64,000 nt of DNA from Hymenobacter daecheongensis DSM 21074 (GTDB lineage Bacteria; Bacteroidota; Bacteroidia; Cytophagales; Hymenobacteraceae), in contig NZ_FQYN01000002.1 in assembly GCF_900141805.1 (NCBI RefSeq), positions 496,001-560,000 of the forward strand, read 5' to 3'. Position numbers and translations under genes: made by a program. The notes under the pieces are model-generated. The model made no database searches and was not told the DNA's origin. It saw only the letters and a list, made by a program, of their open reading frames with translations. The stretch's first letter is position 1; each line of letters starts with the position of its first letter. Positions 14,489 to 23,027 of this stretch are shown here, piece by piece.

Positions 14489-16606
14489 ATGAAAAAGACC
14501 TTTACGCGTCCGATTCTCCACCTCTCGCTGGCGGCCACGGCCGTGGTAGGCGCGCTGGCCTGGAGCGGCCAAAACACCCGTCTGGAGGCTTCCAGCCACC
14601 GCGAAGCCCCGCTCATCGCCGATGACCTGTTGGCTGACAACACGGACGTTTACGCCTTCCGTGACCCTACCAATTCGGAGATGATTAATATCATCGCCAA
14701 CTTCATTCCGTTCCAGCTGCCTCAGGGTGGTCCGAACTATTATCATTTCGGGGAAAATATCCGCTACGAGATTCACGTCAAGAATGACGCGACGACTGTC
14801 GGCGATGATATCACCTACCGCTTCACGTTTACGCGCACAAACCAGGATCCTACTACCCACTTCAATATCCGGTTGGGCAAGGAAAACCTGAAAACGACGT
14901 ATACGCTTGAGCAGAGCATAAAAGGTGCGGCTTTCACGACGTTGGTAACCAATGGTATTGTGCCGCCCTACAACGTAGGCCCACGCGCTATTACCGGTGC
15001 TGCCGGTTTGGGCGCGGCCAGCTATGAGGCGCTCTTCAATGGTGGCATTCAGAACCTGCCCTCTGGCGGGGGTCGGGTGTTTTGCGGACCGGTTGATGAT
15101 CCTTTCTTCGTAGATATTGGCGGCATTGAGGATCTGGGCGGCATCCGCTCGGCCAGCGCCCGCGACGGCTTGTACCACAAAAACGCCAATGCCATTGCCC
15201 TGCAGATTCCGATTTCGGCGTTGCAGAAAACTGGCAAAACCGGCGCGCAGGCAGCTAATATTCTCGACCCGGACTACGTAATCGGGGTATGGGCTTCGGC
15301 CAGCCGGCCCGCTATCCGTACATTGAACACAGATGGTACTCAGACTACCTCGGGTGCTTACGTGCAGGTATCTCGCCTGGGTATGCCGCTGACCAACGAA
15401 GTAGTAAACCCGATTGGTAATAAGGACGAGTACAATGCTCGCACACCTTATAATGAGAACCGGGCATTTGATACCAACTTCGTGAACCCTGAGTTGAGCC
15501 TGTACATGGCTGATGACAACCCGGTCAATGGGGCGGCTCCTAAGCCTCCGGGACAAACGTATTATGGTGAAGCGGTTCCAGGCTTTAACAAGTTGCGCAT
15601 CCAGTCGAAATCGTTGGCTGGCAGAACGGGGCTACCCGCTAATGGATTTGACTTCCGCAACGGGGCCAATGGCCTGTCGGTGCTGACGACGGCGCAACGC
15701 GCCGGAACTGTATTTGCCGACCCTACCTACGGTCCTATCCTGCTTCAGGCTGGTAAGCCCCGCTCGGTAGACTTGTTGCCAATCTTCCAGACGGGTGTTC
15801 CAAACTTAGCTCCGTATCAGTTGGCTACCGGCAAAAACGGCAACCCATTGGCTGCCGGCAAGCCCTTCATCAACAACTTCCTGCCTACACTGGGTGATAT
15901 GCTGCGCCTGAATATGGCTGTGCCCACCACGCCCCGTAACTCGGCTGACTTCAGCTCGGAAGGGCTGCTGGCCGCTGCGGTATTGGGTCTGACGGACGCA
16001 CGGTTCAACACGACTACTACTCTGCAGGCCATTCCAAACATGGATGGTTTCCCGAACGGCCGTCGTTTGGAAGATGACGTGGTACGTATTGAGCTGCAAG
16101 CAGTTGGCGGTGTTGTATTGGCTTCGCTGGGTCTGTGGTATGACGATTTCGGTCCTGCGGCTACCAATCCGGTTACACCTCAGCTGAACAACGTACTGAC
16201 CTTCACCACGGGCATAGAGCGCAACGATACTACGCTCCGGGCGGCGTTCCCTTACATGCAGCTTCCATGGAGCGGCACCAAAGCGCAGCCAACCGTGACT
16301 TCGCAGCGTGGAAGCTCTGCTTTGGGCCTGCAGTCATCGCCGGTGGCAATCGGTCAAAACTATCCTAACCCGTTCAACGAGCGGACTACTTTCCACTACG
16401 AAGTAGCTAAAGCCGGGCCACTGACGCTGACTGTGACGGATATGATGGGTCGCAAAGTAGCTACGGTCTTCAATAACAAAGAGCATAAAGCCGGCACCTA
16501 CGACTTCGTTTGGAAAGTGCCTACGCTGGCTGCCGGCACCTATATTGCTACCGTAAAATCGGGCGCAACGGTGCTGCAATCCATCAAGCTCGTTCATACC
16601 AACTAG
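14489..16606 (+). CDS. DUF4331 family secreted protein with T9SS C-terminal sorting domain
   Basis: A 705-residue exported protein. After a signal peptide (residues 1 to about 27), the DUF4331 start signature appears: SSHREAPLIADDLLADNTDVYAF. The family domain, with NIIANFIPFQLPQGGPNYYHFG, fills most of the chain. The last about 80 residues (NYPNPFNERTTFHYEV, then MMGRKVATVFNN and AGTYIATVKSGATVLQSIKLVH) are a type A T9SS sorting domain, so the protein should reach the cell surface or medium. Its biochemical role is unknown. Codon use is richer in GGT, CGT, GCT and GTA than in the flanking genes and resembles the ribosomal-protein genes here, suggesting high expression. A downstream hairpin pair separates it from the TPR gene. 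Confidence 0.88.
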   Translation: MKKTFTRPILHLSLAATAVVGALAWSGQNTRLEASSHREAPLIADDLLADNTDVYAFRDPTNSEMINIIANFIPFQLPQGGPNYYHFGENIRYEIHVKNDATTVGDDITYRFTFTRTNQDPTTHFNIRLGKENLKTTYTLEQSIKGAAFTTLVTNGIVPPYNVGPRAITGAAGLGAASYEALFNGGIQNLPSGGGRVFCGPVDDPFFVDIGGIEDLGGIRSASARDGLYHKNANAIALQIPISALQKTGKTGAQAANILDPDYVIGVWASASRPAIRTLNTDGTQTTSGAYVQVSRLGMPLTNEVVNPIGNKDEYNARTPYNENRAFDTNFVNPELSLYMADDNPVNGAAPKPPGQTYYGEAVPGFNKLRIQSKSLAGRTGLPANGFDFRNGANGLSVLTTAQRAGTVFADPTYGPILLQAGKPRSVDLLPIFQTGVPNLAPYQLATGKNGNPLAAGKPFINNFLPTLGDMLRLNMAVPTTPRNSADFSSEGLLAAAVLGLTDARFNTTTTLQAIPNMDGFPNGRRLEDDVVRIELQAVGGVVLASLGLWYDDFGPAATNPVTPQLNNVLTFTTGIERNDTTLRAAFPYMQLPWSGTKAQPTVTSQRGSSALGLQSSPVAIGQNYPNPFNERTTFHYEVAKAGPLTLTVTDMMGRKVATVFNNKEHKAGTYDFVWKVPTLAAGTYIATVKSGATVLQSIKLVHTN

Positions 16607-16671
16607 CCATAGCATATCGGCACAGTTGCCAAGCCAGTCTATTTGCAGCCGTGTCGATATTGTGGTAAATT

Positions 16672-16740
16672 GATAGCCGGGCCCGGATGAGCCCGGCTAT
16701 CTTTTTGGAACTATCAGAGGCCAGCGCTACGCTGGCCTCT
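16672..16740 (+). terminator. Two tandem terminator hairpins after the DUF4331 gene
   Basis: The first stem is GATAGCCGGGC/GCCCGGCTATC followed by T5 (16672-16706). The second is AGAGGCCAGCG/CGCTGGCCTCT followed by T4 (16716-16743). Both face the plus strand, 65-137 bp past the stop. No promoter box is visible between them and the TPR gene, so partial readthrough is possible. Confidence 0.75.
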
Positions 16741-16765
16741 TTTACCCACTTCTTAAATAAAAGCT

Positions 16766-18091
16766 TTGCGTAAGTATCTCTACCCAATTCTGGTGCTTTG
16801 CTTTGGAGCGGCTATCGCGGCCCTCTTTTTCTTCCGTAAGCCCGAACTCATTCCAAAGCTGAAAGAGCGCCACGGCGACCTTACCCTGGGCGGGGAATGG
16901 CTGAATACCAAAAATGCCATCGGTGGTCTGATGGCGGAAATCCGGGCCAAGCCCGACGATAACAAGCCCAAGCTGCTGCTGGCCCAGGCGTATATGCAGG
17001 AGGCGCGCGTGACCGGCGACCACCCGTACTACGATATGGCCGCCATGCAGCTGCTGAACGGCATTCTGAAAAAAGAACCCAAAAACTTTGAGGCACTGTG
17101 CTGCAAAGCTTCGTTGTGCCTCACCCAGCACCACTTCTCCGAAGGACTGGCCGTGGCGCAGCAGGCAGTGGAAATAAATCCGCACAATGCCTTCGTATAT
17201 GGCTTGCTCTGCGACGCTAATGTAGAACTGGGCCGCTATGACGAAGCCGTGAAGATGGCCGACAAGATGAACCAGGTGCGGCCTGATCTGCGCTCTTATT
17301 CCCGTGTGTCGTATCTGCGCGAGATTTATGGCGACTATCCGGGGGCTATAGAAGCTATGGATATGGCCGCTAAAGCAGGCTATCCGGGCTTGGAGCAGAC
17401 CGGGTGGGCCCGCACTACCTTGGGACACCTGTATGAGAATACCGGCGACTTGATTAAGGCTGAAAACCAGTACCGGCAGACCTTGCAGGAGCGACCTTTT
17501 TATGCCTACGCGCTGGCCGGCCTGGGCCGGGTGGAAAAAGCCCGTCAGAATTATCCGGCGGCCATCGAGTACTTCCGCAAGGCCCGCGCTACGGTGAAGG
17601 ACTACGCCTTCGCCGACGAGTTGACGGATCTGTACCGCCTGAACCACGAGCCGGCCAAAGCCACGCAAATGGCCAAGGAAGCCATTTCGATGCTGGCCGA
17701 AGATGCCAAGGAGGCCGACGAAAACGAGGAAATGGGCCACTACGCCGACCGGGAACTGGCCTACGCCTACCTCAAAACCAACGAGCTGGACAAAGCCCTG
17801 GCGCACGCCAAGCTGGAATACGACCGCCGCCCCGACAACATCGATGTGAACGAAACCCGGGCCTGGGTGCACTACAAGCGCGGCGAATATAAGGACGCAC
17901 AGACCTACATGGCTAAAGCCCGGCGCACCAGGTCGCAGAACCCAACGCTGCTGTGCCGCGCCGGCCTGATTGCCACCAAAAACGGTAACGCCGCCGAGGG
18001 CCAGGCCCTGATTCGCAAGGCGCTGAGCACGAATCCGTATTTGAGCATGGACCTGGCTGATGAAGGCAAAAAGCTGCTGGCCGCTAACTAA
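16766..18091 (+). CDS. Membrane-anchored tetratricopeptide-repeat protein
   Basis: A 441-residue protein with one N-terminal membrane segment (LYPILVLCFGAAIAALFFF, residues 5-23) and then a long array of TPR-like helix pairs. Examples are PKLLLAQAYMQEARV, ALCCKASLCLTQHHFSEGLAVAQQAVEINPHNAFVYGLL, AGLGRVEKARQNYPAAIEYFRKAR and ETRAWVHYKRGEYKDAQTYMAKAR. TPR arrays mediate protein-protein contacts, probably on the periplasmic side here. The frame opens with TTG at 16766; no ATG precedes the membrane segment, so TTG is the likely start. Its 3' end overlaps the HupE/UreJ gene by 32 bp, indicating translational coupling. Specific function unknown. Confidence 0.85.
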   Translation: MRKYLYPILVLCFGAAIAALFFFRKPELIPKLKERHGDLTLGGEWLNTKNAIGGLMAEIRAKPDDNKPKLLLAQAYMQEARVTGDHPYYDMAAMQLLNGILKKEPKNFEALCCKASLCLTQHHFSEGLAVAQQAVEINPHNAFVYGLLCDANVELGRYDEAVKMADKMNQVRPDLRSYSRVSYLREIYGDYPGAIEAMDMAAKAGYPGLEQTGWARTTLGHLYENTGDLIKAENQYRQTLQERPFYAYALAGLGRVEKARQNYPAAIEYFRKARATVKDYAFADELTDLYRLNHEPAKATQMAKEAISMLAEDAKEADENEEMGHYADRELAYAYLKTNELDKALAHAKLEYDRRPDNIDVNETRAWVHYKRGEYKDAQTYMAKARRTRSQNPTLLCRAGLIATKNGNAAEGQALIRKALSTNPYLSMDLADEGKKLLAAN

Positions 18092-18788
18092 GGGGCATTT
18101 TGCTCCGGCCCTGACAAAAGCTTCCGGCCGCTTGGCGGTCGGCTCTGCCCTGGTGCTGCTGCTCATGGCGCTGCCGCAGCTGGCCGCGGCGCACGTGCTG
18201 GATGTGGACTTGAGCAAGCTGTCGCGCACCGACATTGCCTGGACTTATATCAAGCTGGGCTACACGCACATTCTGCCGCTGGGCCTGGATCATATTCTGT
18301 TCGTGCTCAGTATTTTCTTCCTGGAGCCGCGGCTGAAGCCGGTTTTGTGGCAGGCCACGGCCTTCACGGTGGCCCACTCCATCACGCTGGGGCTGGCTAT
18401 TTATGGCTTCATCAACCCGCCGGCCGGTATTATTGAGCCGGTCATTGCGCTGTCCATCCTGTTTGTGGCCATCGAAAACATCTTTGCCGAGCGGCTGAAT
18501 CCGTGGCGCGTGGCCATTGTGTTCGGGTTCGGGCTGATTCACGGCATGGGTTTCGCCAGCGCCCTTACCTCGCTAGGGCTGCCGCGCTCCATGTTTTTTG
18601 AGTCGCTGATTTCCTTCAACGTGGGCGTGGAATTGGGGCAGGTTTCGGTAATTCTGCTGGCCTGGCTGCTCATCGGTCACTGGTTTGCTCACAAGCCCTG
18701 GTACAAGCAGCGCGTGGTGGTGCCGGCTTCGGTTATCATCGGCCTGGTAGCAGCGTACTGGACGGTAGAGCGGGTTTTCTTCGCCTGA
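18060..18788 (+). CDS. HupE/UreJ-like polytopic membrane protein
   Basis: A 242-residue protein with a signal-like first segment (SALVLLLMALPQLAAAHVLDVD) and about six further hydrophobic helices. Histidine-containing motifs conserved in the HupE/UreJ family lie in the helices: GLDHILFVLSIFFLEP, TVAHSITLGLAIYG and GLIHGMGFASAL. HupE and UreJ are described as nickel (sometimes cobalt) permease-type accessory proteins. The substrate here is unproven, and no hydrogenase or urease gene is present. It begins inside the TPR gene and is followed by two small ORFs and a TonB-dependent receptor, which suggests an envelope transport unit. Confidence 0.82.
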   Translation: MKAKSCWPLTKGHFAPALTKASGRLAVGSALVLLLMALPQLAAAHVLDVDLSKLSRTDIAWTYIKLGYTHILPLGLDHILFVLSIFFLEPRLKPVLWQATAFTVAHSITLGLAIYGFINPPAGIIEPVIALSILFVAIENIFAERLNPWRVAIVFGFGLIHGMGFASALTSLGLPRSMFFESLISFNVGVELGQVSVILLAWLLIGHWFAHKPWYKQRVVVPASVIIGLVAAYWTVERVFFA

Positions 18789-18835
18789 AATGCTTTCAGT
18801 TGCTCATTATAAATTCCTCATTACTAATTTCTAAA

Positions 18836-19222
18836 ATGCTGCGCTCCGTCCTCGTTTTGCTGCTGCTCTGCCCCTACCTGCTGGTAGTGTGCGCGGGCCT
18901 GGTGAACCGGCCGGAGCCGCCGCGCTACACGGCCGCGCATCCTTACGTGCATAGCAAAACGTGCCAGCAGCAGAACTACCTGCGTCTCGACTGCTTCAGC
19001 ACCTGCAACGGCGACCAGCCCACGCTGACCAAAAACATCAAGCCCCTCACGCCGCACCAGCTGCTCACGCTCAGCAAAGGCATCGATCTGCACTGTCTCA
19101 CAGCTTCTGTAGTACTTCCCAACGCCGTATTTCGGCGCGCCCGAAATTTTGGACCGGGTATTATTCTGCGGGTGCAGACGGGCTTTGAAGGGAAATTATA
19201 CGCACCACCCCGTCGGGGATAA
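18836..19222 (+). CDS. Small exported Cys/His-containing protein, unknown
   Basis: A 128-residue predicted protein. It has an N-terminal signal or anchor segment (RSVLVLLLLCPYLLVVCAGL). A hydrophilic part follows with HPYVHSKTC, DCFSTC and DLHC, that is, paired His and four Cys in about 60 residues. That spacing could bind a metal or form disulfides. I do not recognise a family. An upstream GTG/ATG-like extension to 18800 is less likely, because the ATG at 18836 starts exactly at the leader. It sits 47 bp after the HupE-like gene on the same strand and 360 bp before the TonB receptor. Coding status is supported by the leader and position rather than by homology. Confidence 0.55.
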   Translation: MLRSVLVLLLLCPYLLVVCAGLVNRPEPPRYTAAHPYVHSKTCQQQNYLRLDCFSTCNGDQPTLTKNIKPLTPHQLLTLSKGIDLHCLTASVVLPNAVFRRARNFGPGIILRVQTGFEGKLYAPPRRG

Positions 19223-19315
19223 GTCGAGGGCTGGCCTAGAACGGGCCGGCTAAGCACCGCGCGCACCAGACTGCGGCTGCTCGTCTTGTCTTTTTTACCC
19301 TGCGGCCGCTGGCAG

Positions 19316-19579
19316 ATGCTTTGCCATGCCCGGTCGCCATTTCCCGATGGTATGCAACCTTCCGTTACAACTTTTTCGGTCGCTCCGGCCAACCCCGCTG
19401 TGCGGTCAGCTGGCATCAGACTGCCACTTCAAGCCCTTGCTCAACCCGTGGCCTCGCCCGCCCATCTGCCGCAGGAGCAGGCCCACAAGGTCCGCAATAT
19501 CGCCAGCCTCCACGCGCATCGTGCGCAGGTGCTGAACCAGCGCCGCAACGCCATCCGTTCGTCTGCTAAGCGTTGGTAA
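19316..19579 (+). CDS. Possible small basic protein upstream of the TonB receptor
   Basis: An open frame of 87 codons (ATG at 19316; another ATG at 19352 would give 75). The second half has strongly coding-like, GC-ending codons and reads LPQEQAHKVRNIASLHAHRA followed by an Arg/Asn-rich tail. This loosely recalls the LTxxQ helices of Spy/CpxP-type proteins but is not enough to assign a family. It ends 2 bp before the ATG of the receptor gene, the spacing expected of co-translated genes. An antisense frame (19406-19600) is open too, so confidence is limited. Confidence 0.4.
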   Translation: MLCHARSPFPDGMQPSVTTFSVAPANPAVRSAGIRLPLQALAQPVASPAHLPQEQAHKVRNIASLHAHRAQVLNQRRNAIRSSAKRW

Positions 19580-19581
19580 GC

Positions 19582-21990
19582 ATGAAGAATTCTTACCCAA
19601 ATCATCGATTAGCCGCCTCAGTGGCCGGACTCAACGTGCTGCTACAGCGCTTACGCGCTACGACTTTCCAGCGGCCACGAGCAGCCTGGCGGCGGCTCGT
19701 GGCCGGGCTGCTGTGCGGCTTGCTGGCCTTGCCCCTGGCTGCTCAAAACCCTGCTTTCCTGCGCGGCTTCGTTGCCGATTCGGCCTCCGGGCAGCGCCTG
19801 CCGGGCGTGGGCGTGCAGCTGCTGGGCCAGCCCGGCGGCACGGCCACCGATGCGCTGGGCAACTTCCGTTTCGGGGGCTTGGCGGCCGGCACCTACGCCG
19901 TGCAGGTCACGGCCCTGGGCTATGCTGCCCGCCCGCGGGTGGTGCTGCTGCAGGCTGGCGAAACCCGCACCATAGCGCTGGCGCTGCCGGCAGTGGCCTT
20001 GAGTTTGCGCGAAGTAACCGTGTCGCAGCCCCGGGACGTGAACCAGTCGCTGGCGGCTATTTCGCATATCGACCAGGCACTGCGGCCCCTGAACTCGGCG
20101 CAGGATCTGCTGCAGCTGGTGCCGGGGCTGTTCATTGCCCAGCACGCGGGCGGCGGCAAGGCCGAGCAGATTTTTCTGCGCGGCTTCGATGTGGACCACG
20201 GCACCGATTTCGCCGTGAGTATCGATGGACTGCCGGTGAACATGGTGAGCCACGCCCACGGCCAGGGCTACGCCGACTTCCACTTTGTGATACCCGAAAC
20301 AGTGGACCAGCTGCGGGTGTACAAAGGCCCCTACACGGCCCGATTTGGCGATTTTGCTACCGCCGGAGCCGGCGACTTCACCACCAAAACCAGCCTGGAG
20401 CGCAGCCAGGTGAAGCTGGAGCTGGGCCAGTTTGACACGCGCCGGGCCGTGGTGCTGCTCAATCTGCTGGGGGCTGATGGCCTCGCTGGCCGGCAGCTGC
20501 TCAGCAAAAAGCCCGAAAGCGCCTACGTGGCGGCCGAATACAGCTTCACCAACTCCTACTTCGACGCCAAGCAGCACTTCAACCGCTTCAACGGGCTGGC
20601 CAAATACACCGGTCAGCTCTCGGACAATACGTCGCTGATGCTGCTGGGCTCCCACTTTGCCTCGCGCTGGGATGCCAGCGGCCAGGTGCCGGAGCGCGGC
20701 GTGCGCGAGGGCCTGATTTCGCGCTTCGGCAGCATCGATCCTACCGAGGGCGGGCGCACCAGTCGCACCAACGCCACGGCGGTGCTGACTACGGCGCTGC
20801 CGCACGACGCCACGCTGCGCCAGCAGGCCTACTATTCGAAGTACGATTTCAGCCTGTACTCCAACTTCACCTTTTTCCTGCAGGACCCGGTGAACGGCGA
20901 CGGTATCAACCAGACCGACGACCGCCACCTGCTGGGCTACACGGCTACGTATGAGCGAGATACCCAGCTGGGCCGGCGCGACCTGCACTCGGCGCTGGGC
21001 GTGGGCACCCGCAACGACTTTTCGGACCTGGGCCTGCGCCACACCGTGCGGCGCAGCGTGCTGGACACCCTCACGACCGGCCGGCTGTATGAGCGCAACG
21101 TGTACGCCTACCTCGACGAAACCCTGCGCCTGACCGAGCGCCTGACCGTGAATGCCGCCGTACGCGCCGACGTATTCACGTTCGACTTCCGCGGCCTGCT
21201 CTATGACACTACGGCCCTGGCCCTGCGCCCGCTGCGGGGCCGCACGAGCCGGGCGCGGGTGTCGCCCAAGCTGAACCTGTACTACCAGCTCACGCCGGCC
21301 GTGCAGCTGTTTGCCCGCTCCGGCTTCGGCTTTCACTCCAACGATGCGCGGGGCGTGATTCGGGGCACGGGCGCCGACAACGTGCTGCCCCGCGCCCTGG
21401 GCTATGAGGTGGGCAGCACTTTCAAGGTCGGGCCGAGCCTGGTGGTGAATACGGCCCTGTGGGCGCTGCATCTGCAGGATGAACTGGTGTATGTGGGCGA
21501 CGCGGCCGAGGTGGAAAGCAGCGGCCCCACCCGCCGCTTCGGGCTGGATGTGGCCGCCCGCTACCAGCTCACGCGGGTCCTGTTTGCCGACCTCGACCTG
21601 AACTACAACCACGGCCGGCAGGTGCAGGCCCCCGCCGAGGCCCGCTACATTCCGCTGGCCCCCAGCTTCACCAGCATCGGCGGGCTCACGCTGAAGCAGC
21701 CCGGCGGCCTGAGCGCCAGCCTGCGCTACCGCCATCTCAACGACCGCCCCGCCAACGACGACGGCAGCATCCGGGCCAAGGGCTACTTTCTGCTCGATGC
21801 CGTGTTGAGCTACACCAAAGCGCGTTTTCAGGTGGGCGCTACGGCCGAAAACCTGCTCAACGCAACGTGGAATCAGGCCCAGTTTGCCACCGAAACCCGC
21901 CTGCCCAACGAGGCCCAGCCCGTAGATGAACTGCATTTCACGCCCGGCACGCCGTTCTTCCTGAAGCTGAATGCCAGCGTGTTTTTCTGA
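19582..21990 (+). CDS. TonB-dependent outer-membrane receptor with carboxypeptidase-like regulatory domain
   Basis: An 802-residue receptor. An unusually long N-region (about 38 residues) precedes the signal peptide core LVAGLLCGLLALPLAAQ. A CarboxypepD_reg-like domain follows (FLRGFVADSASGQRLPGVGVQLLG to GYAARPRVVLL). The plug domain (QDLLQLVPGLFIAQHAGGGK to ARFGDFATAGAGDF) contains a cluster of histidines, VDHGTDF and SHAHGQGYADFHF. The rest is a 22-strand-type barrel ending in the aromatic KLNASVFF. It would import a bound substrate using TonB energy. No SusD partner follows, so it is not a polysaccharide-utilisation pair. The neighbouring HupE-like gene and the plug histidines suggest a metal or metal-complex substrate (inference). 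Confidence 0.92.
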   Translation: MKNSYPNHRLAASVAGLNVLLQRLRATTFQRPRAAWRRLVAGLLCGLLALPLAAQNPAFLRGFVADSASGQRLPGVGVQLLGQPGGTATDALGNFRFGGLAAGTYAVQVTALGYAARPRVVLLQAGETRTIALALPAVALSLREVTVSQPRDVNQSLAAISHIDQALRPLNSAQDLLQLVPGLFIAQHAGGGKAEQIFLRGFDVDHGTDFAVSIDGLPVNMVSHAHGQGYADFHFVIPETVDQLRVYKGPYTARFGDFATAGAGDFTTKTSLERSQVKLELGQFDTRRAVVLLNLLGADGLAGRQLLSKKPESAYVAAEYSFTNSYFDAKQHFNRFNGLAKYTGQLSDNTSLMLLGSHFASRWDASGQVPERGVREGLISRFGSIDPTEGGRTSRTNATAVLTTALPHDATLRQQAYYSKYDFSLYSNFTFFLQDPVNGDGINQTDDRHLLGYTATYERDTQLGRRDLHSALGVGTRNDFSDLGLRHTVRRSVLDTLTTGRLYERNVYAYLDETLRLTERLTVNAAVRADVFTFDFRGLLYDTTALALRPLRGRTSRARVSPKLNLYYQLTPAVQLFARSGFGFHSNDARGVIRGTGADNVLPRALGYEVGSTFKVGPSLVVNTALWALHLQDELVYVGDAAEVESSGPTRRFGLDVAARYQLTRVLFADLDLNYNHGRQVQAPAEARYIPLAPSFTSIGGLTLKQPGGLSASLRYRHLNDRPANDDGSIRAKGYFLLDAVLSYTKARFQVGATAENLLNATWNQAQFATETRLPNEAQPVDELHFTPGTPFFLKLNASVFF

Positions 21991-22167: not shown

Positions 22168-22193
22168 GTACTTCCGCCAGCGAAGAACAGTTG

Positions 22194-23027
22194 ATGAATT
22201 TCCGAACTCCCTTATTCAGCGGCAAAACCTCGTTCTGGCTGCTGCTTCTGCTGCTGAGCGGCTGCCAAACCGCCGAGCAGCAGCAGCAGGAAAAGCCGCG
22301 CCCCGCCACGACGCGGACGGCTCCCGCCCGCGCCACTGCCCCCGCCGACACGCTGCAGCCCCCGCCGCTGCCGCCGCTGGCCGCGGTGCCGGCCGAGCTG
22401 CGGCGGCGCATTGGCCAGCTGCACGCGGCGCTGGGCACGGAGGCCGCCGAACTGCGGCCGGCCGTGTGGGAACGGGCCTGCGTGGGCTATCTGGTGCTGC
22501 GGCAGCAGGGCAAAGTGCGCCGGTCGGGCCTGCTGGCCGTGGCCGATATGGAGCTGCCCTCGTCCAGCCAGCGGCTATGGGTGATTGATCTGCGGGCCGG
22601 CAAAGTGGTGCAGCGCAGCTACGTGGCCCACGGGCGCGGCTCGGGCCGGCTGCTGGCGCGGCGCTTTTCCAACCGCATCAAGTCGGCGTGTACGGCGCTG
22701 GGCTTCTACCGTACGGCCGATACCTATGGCGGCTCGCACGGCCTGTCGCGCCGGCTGCGGGGGCTGGATGCGGGGCAGAACAGCAATGCCGAGGACCGCT
22801 ACATTGTGCTGCACGCCGCCGACTATGCCGGCCGCGCCCACCTGGCGCGGCACGGGCAGCTGGGCTACAGCCGGGGCTGCCCGGCCCTGCCGCCCGAGCA
22901 GTACCGCGCCGTGATTGGGGCCGTGGGTGAGGGCGCGTGCCTGCTGCTGAGCGGCGCGGCCCTGCAGTCGCGCTGGCTCGATGGGGCCGCGGCGGGCCGG
23001 GCCTTCGCGGCGCGGGGCTGGAACTAG
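22194..23027 (+). CDS. Lipoprotein of the murein L,D-transpeptidase catalytic-domain family
   Basis: A 277-residue protein. The lipobox LLLSGC places the acylated Cys at about residue 24. A Pro/Thr/Ala-rich linker runs to about residue 65. The C-terminal domain contains MELPSSSQRLWVIDLRAGKVV, VAHGRGSG, GSHGLSRRLRGLD and the presumed catalytic block VLHAADYAG to LGYSRGCPALP (conserved His and Cys). The family is related to YkuD-type L,D-transpeptidases that act on peptidoglycan stem peptides. A paralog without lipobox is at 39127. It is upstream of and co-directional with the kdp regulator, but a separate promoter box near 23062 suggests independent expression. Confidence 0.85.
   Translation: MNFRTPLFSGKTSFWLLLLLLSGCQTAEQQQQEKPRPATTRTAPARATAPADTLQPPPLPPLAAVPAELRRRIGQLHAALGTEAAELRPAVWERACVGYLVLRQQGKVRRSGLLAVADMELPSSSQRLWVIDLRAGKVVQRSYVAHGRGSGRLLARRFSNRIKSACTALGFYRTADTYGGSHGLSRRLRGLDAGQNSNAEDRYIVLHAADYAGRAHLARHGQLGYSRGCPALPPEQYRAVIGAVGEGACLLLSGAALQSRWLDGAAAGRAFAARGWN

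Follow-up and report, generated by a model that had tools for sequence, protein, structure and literature searches.

What do five genes that lie together on one strand (+) of the window, by which we mean the whole 64,000 nucleotide stretch of DNA analysed here (G000:C10:496001-560000), do for a 4.39 Mb genome whose closest named loci are those of Hymenobacter? In order they encode a DUF4331 protein, a tetratricopeptide repeat (TPR) protein, a HupE_UreJ_2 permease, the product of a small open reading frame (sORF1), and a TonB-dependent receptor (Table 1). Family-model matches recover, each in its place and all on the + strand, every family that an initial annotation had named here. That annotation proposed that the genes form one uptake module, possibly for a metal. 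The arrangement is conserved far beyond chance. Metal capture and import is its most likely role, and with moderate confidence we read the locus as a trans-envelope module for acquiring a transition metal, nickel being the likeliest candidate or else cobalt.

Co-occurrence within the genus was scored in 37 genomes (G000-G036), where DUF4331 is strongly matched in 31 and not in six (G010, G018, G021, G026, G032, G035). A permease of the cluster type (over 250 bits) is present in 30 of the 31 genomes with DUF4331 and in none of the six without it, which have weaker HupE matches only; the sole exception, G036, is an assembly in 340 contigs. The receptor, called at E 1e-60 or better, occurs in 28/31 and 2/6 of these genomes, respectively. 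Fisher's test, in which kinship is ignored, gives p values of 3e-6 for HupE and 0.007 for the receptor. sORF1 was found in 27 genomes, every one of which carries DUF4331, HupE and the receptor, and among the 28 genomes with those three only the fragmented G028 is without it. It had no match in G015 and G031, where DUF4331-TPR-HupE is kept and the receptor gave no match, nor in G018 and G032, which have a receptor and no cluster-type HupE. One genome (G033) has DUF4331 on a separate contig from TPR-HupE-sORF1-receptor.

Conservation of this order across Bacteroidota, a check set beforehand, proved strong in the genus and partial across the phylum. A single scan of named genomes gave 78 loci (some genomes represented twice, matches below set bit scores dropped), and in 41 of these the five genes stand together: 35 have the order DUF4331-TPR-HupE-sORF1-receptor, two a tandem DUF4331, and four a DUF4331 pair after the receptor. 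The order without sORF1 occurs in 11, and the rest are shorter, cut by a contig end, or hold DUF4331 alone or in tandem; the stretch contains no TPR gene in 17 of the 78. DUF4331 turned up in 25 of 395 genomes drawn from the phylum, and the match was partial and broken in two of the 25. Of the 20 further phylum loci (those unbroken and unread before, two with stretches short at a contig end), 19 have a TPR gene downstream of DUF4331, co-directional and no more than 0.8 kb away. Across all 20, the stretch includes the receptor in 10 cases, HupE of the cluster type in four and HupE with a weaker match in three. Anywhere in the genome, the receptor is present in 13/18 genomes with DUF4331 versus 5/20 without it (p 0.008), the sets not being matched for kinship and G160 and G211, whose DUF4331 is broken, being excluded (the receptor is in G211, not G160). 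Based on these phylum-wide counts the DUF4331-TPR pair is the most constant element, then the receptor, then HupE. Conserved linkage, whose lack would have refuted the single uptake module initially proposed, is thus present; the module is not invariant, as the receptor and HupE sometimes lie elsewhere or were not found.

The linkage of DUF4331, TPR and permease extends to two further phyla. This survey covered plasmid records, of which 32 were found to contain DUF4331 by protein search; 22 were read, two of them from Adhaeribacter (Bacteroidota). TPR adjoins DUF4331 or lies one gene off in 14/22 loci (by profile or Pfam match, with weak scores in Proteobacteria), and two Lichenicola loci have a similar-sized protein at its place, with no Pfam match in the one that was scanned. 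The six loci without a TPR neighbour comprise five from Rhodobacterales and one short Streptomyces copy. A permease gene is alongside in 12 of the 22: HupE_UreJ_2 in seven (Marinobacter, Comamonadaceae, Variovorax, two Paraburkholderia, one of them in another order, and two Lichenicola) and NicO over its cut-off in four (two Streptomyces, Embleya and one Streptomycetaceae strain), with a Nonomuraea NicO below the cut-off. DUF4331-TPR-permease trios recur in this way in Actinomycetota and Pseudomonadota, and the third position appears to be fillable by either of two Ni/Co-type permease families, HupE_UreJ_2 or NicO. In Variovorax (one case, read unannotated) a UreD gene (E 1.5e-49) lies directly 5' of DUF4331-TPR-HupE, and a receptor of the family, with a LysR gene beside it, falls inside the same 19 kb.

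The receptor is composed of CarboxypepD_reg, Plug (63.4 bits, cut-off 23.9) and barrel (78 bits, cut-off 27) domains. It is not of the SusC/RagA type (28.2 bits to TIGR04056, cut-off 368.25), and the two genes 3' of it encode YkuD_2 and then a sigma-54 response regulator, in agreement with its initial description as a receptor lacking SusD. With residues counted from TTG 19573 (the likely start being ATG 19582), H191, H209, H229 and H588 are invariant in 81/81 receptor sequences, which were not dereplicated, and H237 and H227 are conserved at 0.99 and 0.95. Proteobacterial relatives with 31-35% identity occur among 41 plasmid records, and the four invariant histidines are kept in 12/12 aligned receptors, six of them proteobacterial; in these six, Asn replaces H237 in 6/6 and H227 in 2/6. 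NikR or NixA/HoxN lies near the receptor relative in five of seven annotated proteobacterial contexts, which were picked from the 41 for variety and not at random, the count being uncorrected for the background frequency of NikR beside other receptors. HoxN is 4.4 kb away on Cupriavidus necator pHG1, NixA adjoins the receptor in Bradyrhizobium together with hydrogenase genes, NikR and NixA are both near it in Paraburkholderia, and NikR is near it in Methylomagnum and in Comamonadaceae. The histidine signature provides a sequence handle for a family of outer-membrane receptors with members in both Bacteroidota and Proteobacteria, linked to nickel by its gene context. The window receptor itself neighbours HupE and sORF1, not NikR or NixA, and the host genome was not searched for NikR. 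At E 1e-5 or better the receptor matched one solved structure alone, 9gbc, and a literature search, with most subscription journals outside its scope, returned no paper combining nickel, a TonB-dependent receptor, NikR and HoxN.

The permease matches PF13795 at 158.9 bits (cut-off 24.5), and H45, H70, D77, H78, H106, E126, E139 and H161 are identical in 78/78 aligned sequences, with E191 kept in 99%. No capture domain is fused to it: the PF13795 match begins at residue 63 of 242, and H45 falls just after a hydrophobic segment. A sequence search of solved structures gave no credible match. The initial suggestion of a metal gains from these conserved His, Asp and Glu residues, from the invariant receptor histidines, from the exchange of HupE for NicO and from NikR or NixA near receptor relatives; which metal is something we infer. 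In one locus (L060:12384-13447) a DUF6702 gene adjoins a 185-residue HupE_UreJ_2 gene just after DUF4331-TPR.

The DUF4331 protein matches PF14224 at 403.6 bits (cut-off 27), and the annotated type IX secretion system (T9SS) tail is borne out by PF18962 (29.2 bits, cut-off 27) and TIGR04183 (36.6 bits, cut-off 23), export being predicted only; the family would be placed outside the cell by whichever export route the lineage offers. Its alignment contains an invariant SHREAP block and many invariant Asp, with a single invariant His. An AlphaFold model built from 9 sequences had a predicted local distance difference test score (pLDDT) of 44.3, and a second, from the window sequence plus 73 of 94 non-redundant domain sequences (21 left out by hand), had a pLDDT of 85.7. 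Foldseek with the second DUF4331 model gave nothing at E 0.001 or better (top probability 0.20 among the matches listed), VIA-align gave a maximum Z of 6.2 to antibody beta-sandwiches and no convincing fold relative, and a sequence search of solved structures gave no credible match. No paper naming DUF4331 was retrieved from the same range of journals. The family is large, secreted and highly conserved but has no role assigned to it, and the three-phylum trio suggests a first function that can be tested.

Of the two small frames that had been annotated, sORF1 is a genuine gene, because it is conserved and its substitutions fall mostly at third codon positions (39, 20 and 57 by codon position between the window and L021; 5, 4 and 22 between L022 and L023); its start is most likely ATG 18836, not TTG 18800. 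The product has a hydrophobic N-terminus, HSxxCQ, CxxxC and DxH motifs, and a C-terminal PP. C53, C57, P124 and P125 are present in 21/21 sequences, and in 20/21 the PP is followed by exactly three residues to the end. No Pfam or NCBIfam family matched it, DUF2946 (PF11162) included, the only match at E up to 10 being Crl (E 0.1). Eight extra copies were read; a ninth stands at the very end of L093. In two of the eight cases a receptor and a DUF4198 gene follow, once with an extracytoplasmic function (ECF) sigma-like frame in between, and two other copies are followed by a receptor and ATP-binding cassette (ABC) transporter genes (one permease identified by Pfam, the ATPases by eye). One copy precedes a second cluster-type receptor and one a 459-residue HupE_UreJ_2 gene, while the remaining two lack a transporter gene immediately downstream. 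For the second small frame, sORF2, no more than six relatives gave a recognisable counterpart, and just the last ~36 codons are conserved in the manner of coding sequence. The frame closes 2 nucleotides before the likely receptor start, and translational coupling between the two is possible. RNA folding of 19195-19600, which spans the gap between sORF1 and the receptor, showed no unusual structure (z -0.27). The extra copies with ABC transporter genes and a receptor are at L163:5501-10001 and L166:5418-8829, where the L163 permease carries DUF3526. Elsewhere, a 150-residue His-rich frame with a proline-rich end (L035:6237-6689) lies just 5' of a distant receptor of the family.

From the gene identities, order, co-occurrence, conserved residues and neighbourhoods of relatives described above we infer a route for the metal, each functional step and its direction included. 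The DUF4331 protein, once exported (by T9SS here), would work extracellularly or at the cell surface, capturing the metal itself or a complex of it, and the TonB-dependent receptor would pass the complex across the outer membrane with the help of histidines in its plug and in one segment of the barrel. In the periplasm the TPR protein, tethered to the membrane through its N-terminal segment, may serve as a scaffold or hand-over factor, and HupE_UreJ_2 would carry the ion across the inner membrane. sORF1, which we propose to be a metal-sensing leader of the receptor gene, would be translated just before the receptor; judging by analogy, its Cys/His cluster probably senses the metal, and slowing at the C-terminal proline pair may tune receptor expression. 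More tentatively, and as a possibility short of probable, DUF4331 would be a dedicated extracellular Ni/Co capture protein that works with TPR hand-over in three phyla, through interchangeable HupE_UreJ_2 or NicO permeases, and is wired in Hymenobacter to a histidine-signature receptor set by a new Cys/His-Pro-Pro leader family.

Such a module is a variation on known metal uptake, in which DUF4331 and sORF1 are given a first testable role. The nickel TonB-dependent transporters reported from Proteobacteria (FecA3, FrpB4, CntO, Bll6948, Daro_3944, Rgel01002199 and NikH; PMC11247825) resemble the window receptor in that its relatives lie near NikR, NixA/HoxN or hydrogenase genes and have the histidine signature in common. 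They differ, in a comparison made by description, in that the window receptor is joined to DUF4331, TPR, HupE and sORF1 and carries CarboxypepD_reg in front. The HupE/UreJ-2 'anglerases' described in 2025 have fused capture domains with an N-terminal His, and DUF4198 and DUF6702 are given as metal binders, nickel included, with DUF4198 a secreted nickel-binding protein encoded near TonB receptors and NikR (PMC12537917); searches within that paper's main text turned up neither DUF4331 nor TPR. The window permease is like an anglerase in its conserved H45 at the expected mature-protein start and unlike one in having no fused capture domain, whose place DUF4331-TPR may take.

The small protein has its own precedents. 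CruR of Bordetella pertussis, through which copper controls a TonB transporter, has an export signal, a CXXC and a RAPP three residues before its end (PMC9426467). sORF1 is likewise a small, predicted-exported frame before a TonB receptor gene, with a Cys pair and a near-terminal PP; unlike CruR, it has CxxxC instead of CXXC, neither RAPP nor a DUF2946 match, and a place between HupE and the receptor rather than at the head of an operon. CutF combines CxxxC with a proline-rich end, and some CutF-like families neighbour HupE/UreJ genes (PMC9973294); sORF1 shares the CxxxC and the C-terminal prolines but has no family match, and the HupE-linked clusters described in that paper have only His-rich motifs. 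The copper receptor CrtA has a CruR-type leader and an invariant histidine thought to filter its ligand (PMC12914433). An invariant histidine is common to CrtA, compared by description, and the window receptor, whose match among solved structures, at E 1e-5 or better, is 9gbc only. A survey of RAPP/RGPP found TonB-type upstream open reading frames throughout Gram-negatives and lists Bacteroidota among groups without copper-type ones (PMC12992588). sORF1, which may be a metal-sensing leader within Bacteroidota, would escape any screen that relies on RAPP or RGPP.

Several observations weigh against nickel or cobalt acquisition. In the host, urease is a decayed 73-residue fragment with two stops (G000:C7:39535-39711) and [NiFe]-hydrogenase was not detected (1/37 genus genomes has one), leaving nickel for host urease or hydrogenase unsupported. 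CbiC was not found in the host and in only 2/37 genus genomes, and we rejected cobalt for corrin synthesis; LarA was not found in the host either, and lactate racemase, with matches in 0/59 genomes, was set aside as a nickel user. A search for nickel superoxide dismutase likewise returned 0/59, its controls giving no match either. Full urease matches occur in 18/31 genus genomes with DUF4331 and 3/6 without, so urease does not follow the module. Among the receptor relatives, the Methylorubrum one has corrin genes 3.4 kb away and neither NikR nor NixA, and the Indioceanicola one has nothing metal-related around it. Metal binding by DUF4331 is a guess from gene company, because no fold match was convincing and one invariant His stands among many Asp. 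Nickel transporters have been noted in 10 organisms with no known nickel enzymes (PMC2667541). The metal could be cobalt, copper or another, and transport would be inward only on our reading.

Copper is the likeliest of the rival explanations, with the same architecture: sORF1 a copper-sensing leader, the receptor an importer of copper chelates and HupE_UreJ_2 a carrier of copper. The sORF1 CxxxC recalls copper leaders, as in CutF (PMC9973294), as does the PP three residues from the end in CruR (PMC9426467); copper, of the metals tried, stabilised a HupE-fused Ang-1 domain most (PMC12537917); the genes that follow two extra sORF1 copies encode a receptor and ABC transporter components and are not of nickel type; and the nickel enzymes searched for in the host were missing, as detailed above. 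Yet receptor relatives lie near NikR, NixA or HoxN, two other sORF1 copies are near DUF4198, reported to bind nickel (PMC12537917), and the receptor reaches only 19.5 bits against the cut-off of 472.45 for the TonB-copper model TIGR01778, and we consider copper unlikely. It is quite unlikely that DUF4331-TPR is a separate extracellular system, such as an enzyme and its partner, inherited by chance beside metal transport genes. The 17/78 loci in which DUF4331 is alone or in tandem, with no TPR in the stretch, would fit that explanation, as would five Rhodobacterales loci where DUF4331 lies by type II secretion genes and neighbours neither TPR nor a permease, an arrangement that also counts against metal acquisition in general; the high conservation of DUF4331, with many invariant Asp and one His, would suit an enzyme and a metal binder alike. 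Recurrence with two permease families in three phyla argues the other way, as does the genus contrast in HupE (30/31 versus 0/6).

RcnA, part of the NicO family, exports nickel and cobalt, and a Streptomycetaceae NicO has a His-rich loop; both would be expected of a module for metal excess, in which the permease exports or sequesters, DUF4331 scavenges outside and the receptor is loosely connected. HupE/UreJ and TonB receptor genes are also raised at high nickel in Sphingobium sp. ba1 (PMC5557971). TonB-dependent receptors import, however, and one accompanies DUF4331 in 28/31 genus genomes, while the HupE members tested take up nickel (PMC5557971, PMC2667541, PMC11247825); we regard metal excess as the least probable of the explanations, and retain acquisition of nickel or cobalt.

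Table 1. Features of the cluster and its 3' neighbour, in window coordinates.
Feature	Position	Strand	Evidence or remark
DUF4331 protein, 705 residues, T9SS type A tail at C-terminus	14489..16606	+	PF14224, E 1.6e-120
Terminator-like hairpin, DUF4331-TPR gap	16672..16701	+	Terminator scan
TPR protein, 441 residues, hydrophobic segment at N-terminus	16766..18091	+	Pfam TPR families
HupE_UreJ_2 permease, 242 residues as called	18060..18788	+	PF13795, E 1e-46
sORF1, 128 residues	18836..19222	+	23 invariant columns in 21 sequences; codon-position bias
sORF2, small frame	19286..19579	+	Last ~36 codons conserved in six relatives
TonB-dependent receptor, histidine signature DHGTD, HxHGQGY, FHSND	19582..21990	+	PF07715, PF00593
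YkuD_2 L,D-transpeptidase	22191..23027	+	PF13645, E 3e-51; left out of the proposed mechanism

The frames of TPR and HupE overlap, as initially annotated, by 32 nucleotides on the called starts. A strong terminator-like hairpin separates DUF4331 from TPR (the scan returned 12 sites in total versus 8.5 expected), and we therefore dropped the single-operon reading and make no claim of a single transcript; similar hairpins were found by a simple script in 28/88 homologous gaps. A sigma-70 promoter scan, whose coverage does not include Bacteroidota promoters, found none on the + strand, and a tRNA scan and Rfam at gathering thresholds gave no match within the window. Many Hymenobacter loci have a YkuD-type gene, or two, downstream.

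DUF4331 also occurs in other settings. Tandem pairs, the second member in a very long frame, stand after the receptor or in stretches without the module genes (L103, L104, L112, L117, L119, L124, L127, L129, L130, L136, L138), and a broken remnant with internal stops (G211:C5:115869-120682) lies ~2 kb from a cluster-type receptor gene. The Rhodobacterales copies (L145, L147, L148, L155, L156) are placed as cargo might be, with type II secretion genes and one for a prepilin peptidase as neighbours. On a Streptomycetaceae plasmid DUF4331 and TPR are separated by a class F sortase gene (L151:7794-8537), and that DUF4331 has a hydrophobic, basic tail. In Pseudoalteromonas (L142:4598-5823) a pair of genes for a sigma factor and an anti-sigma factor is directly 5' of DUF4331.

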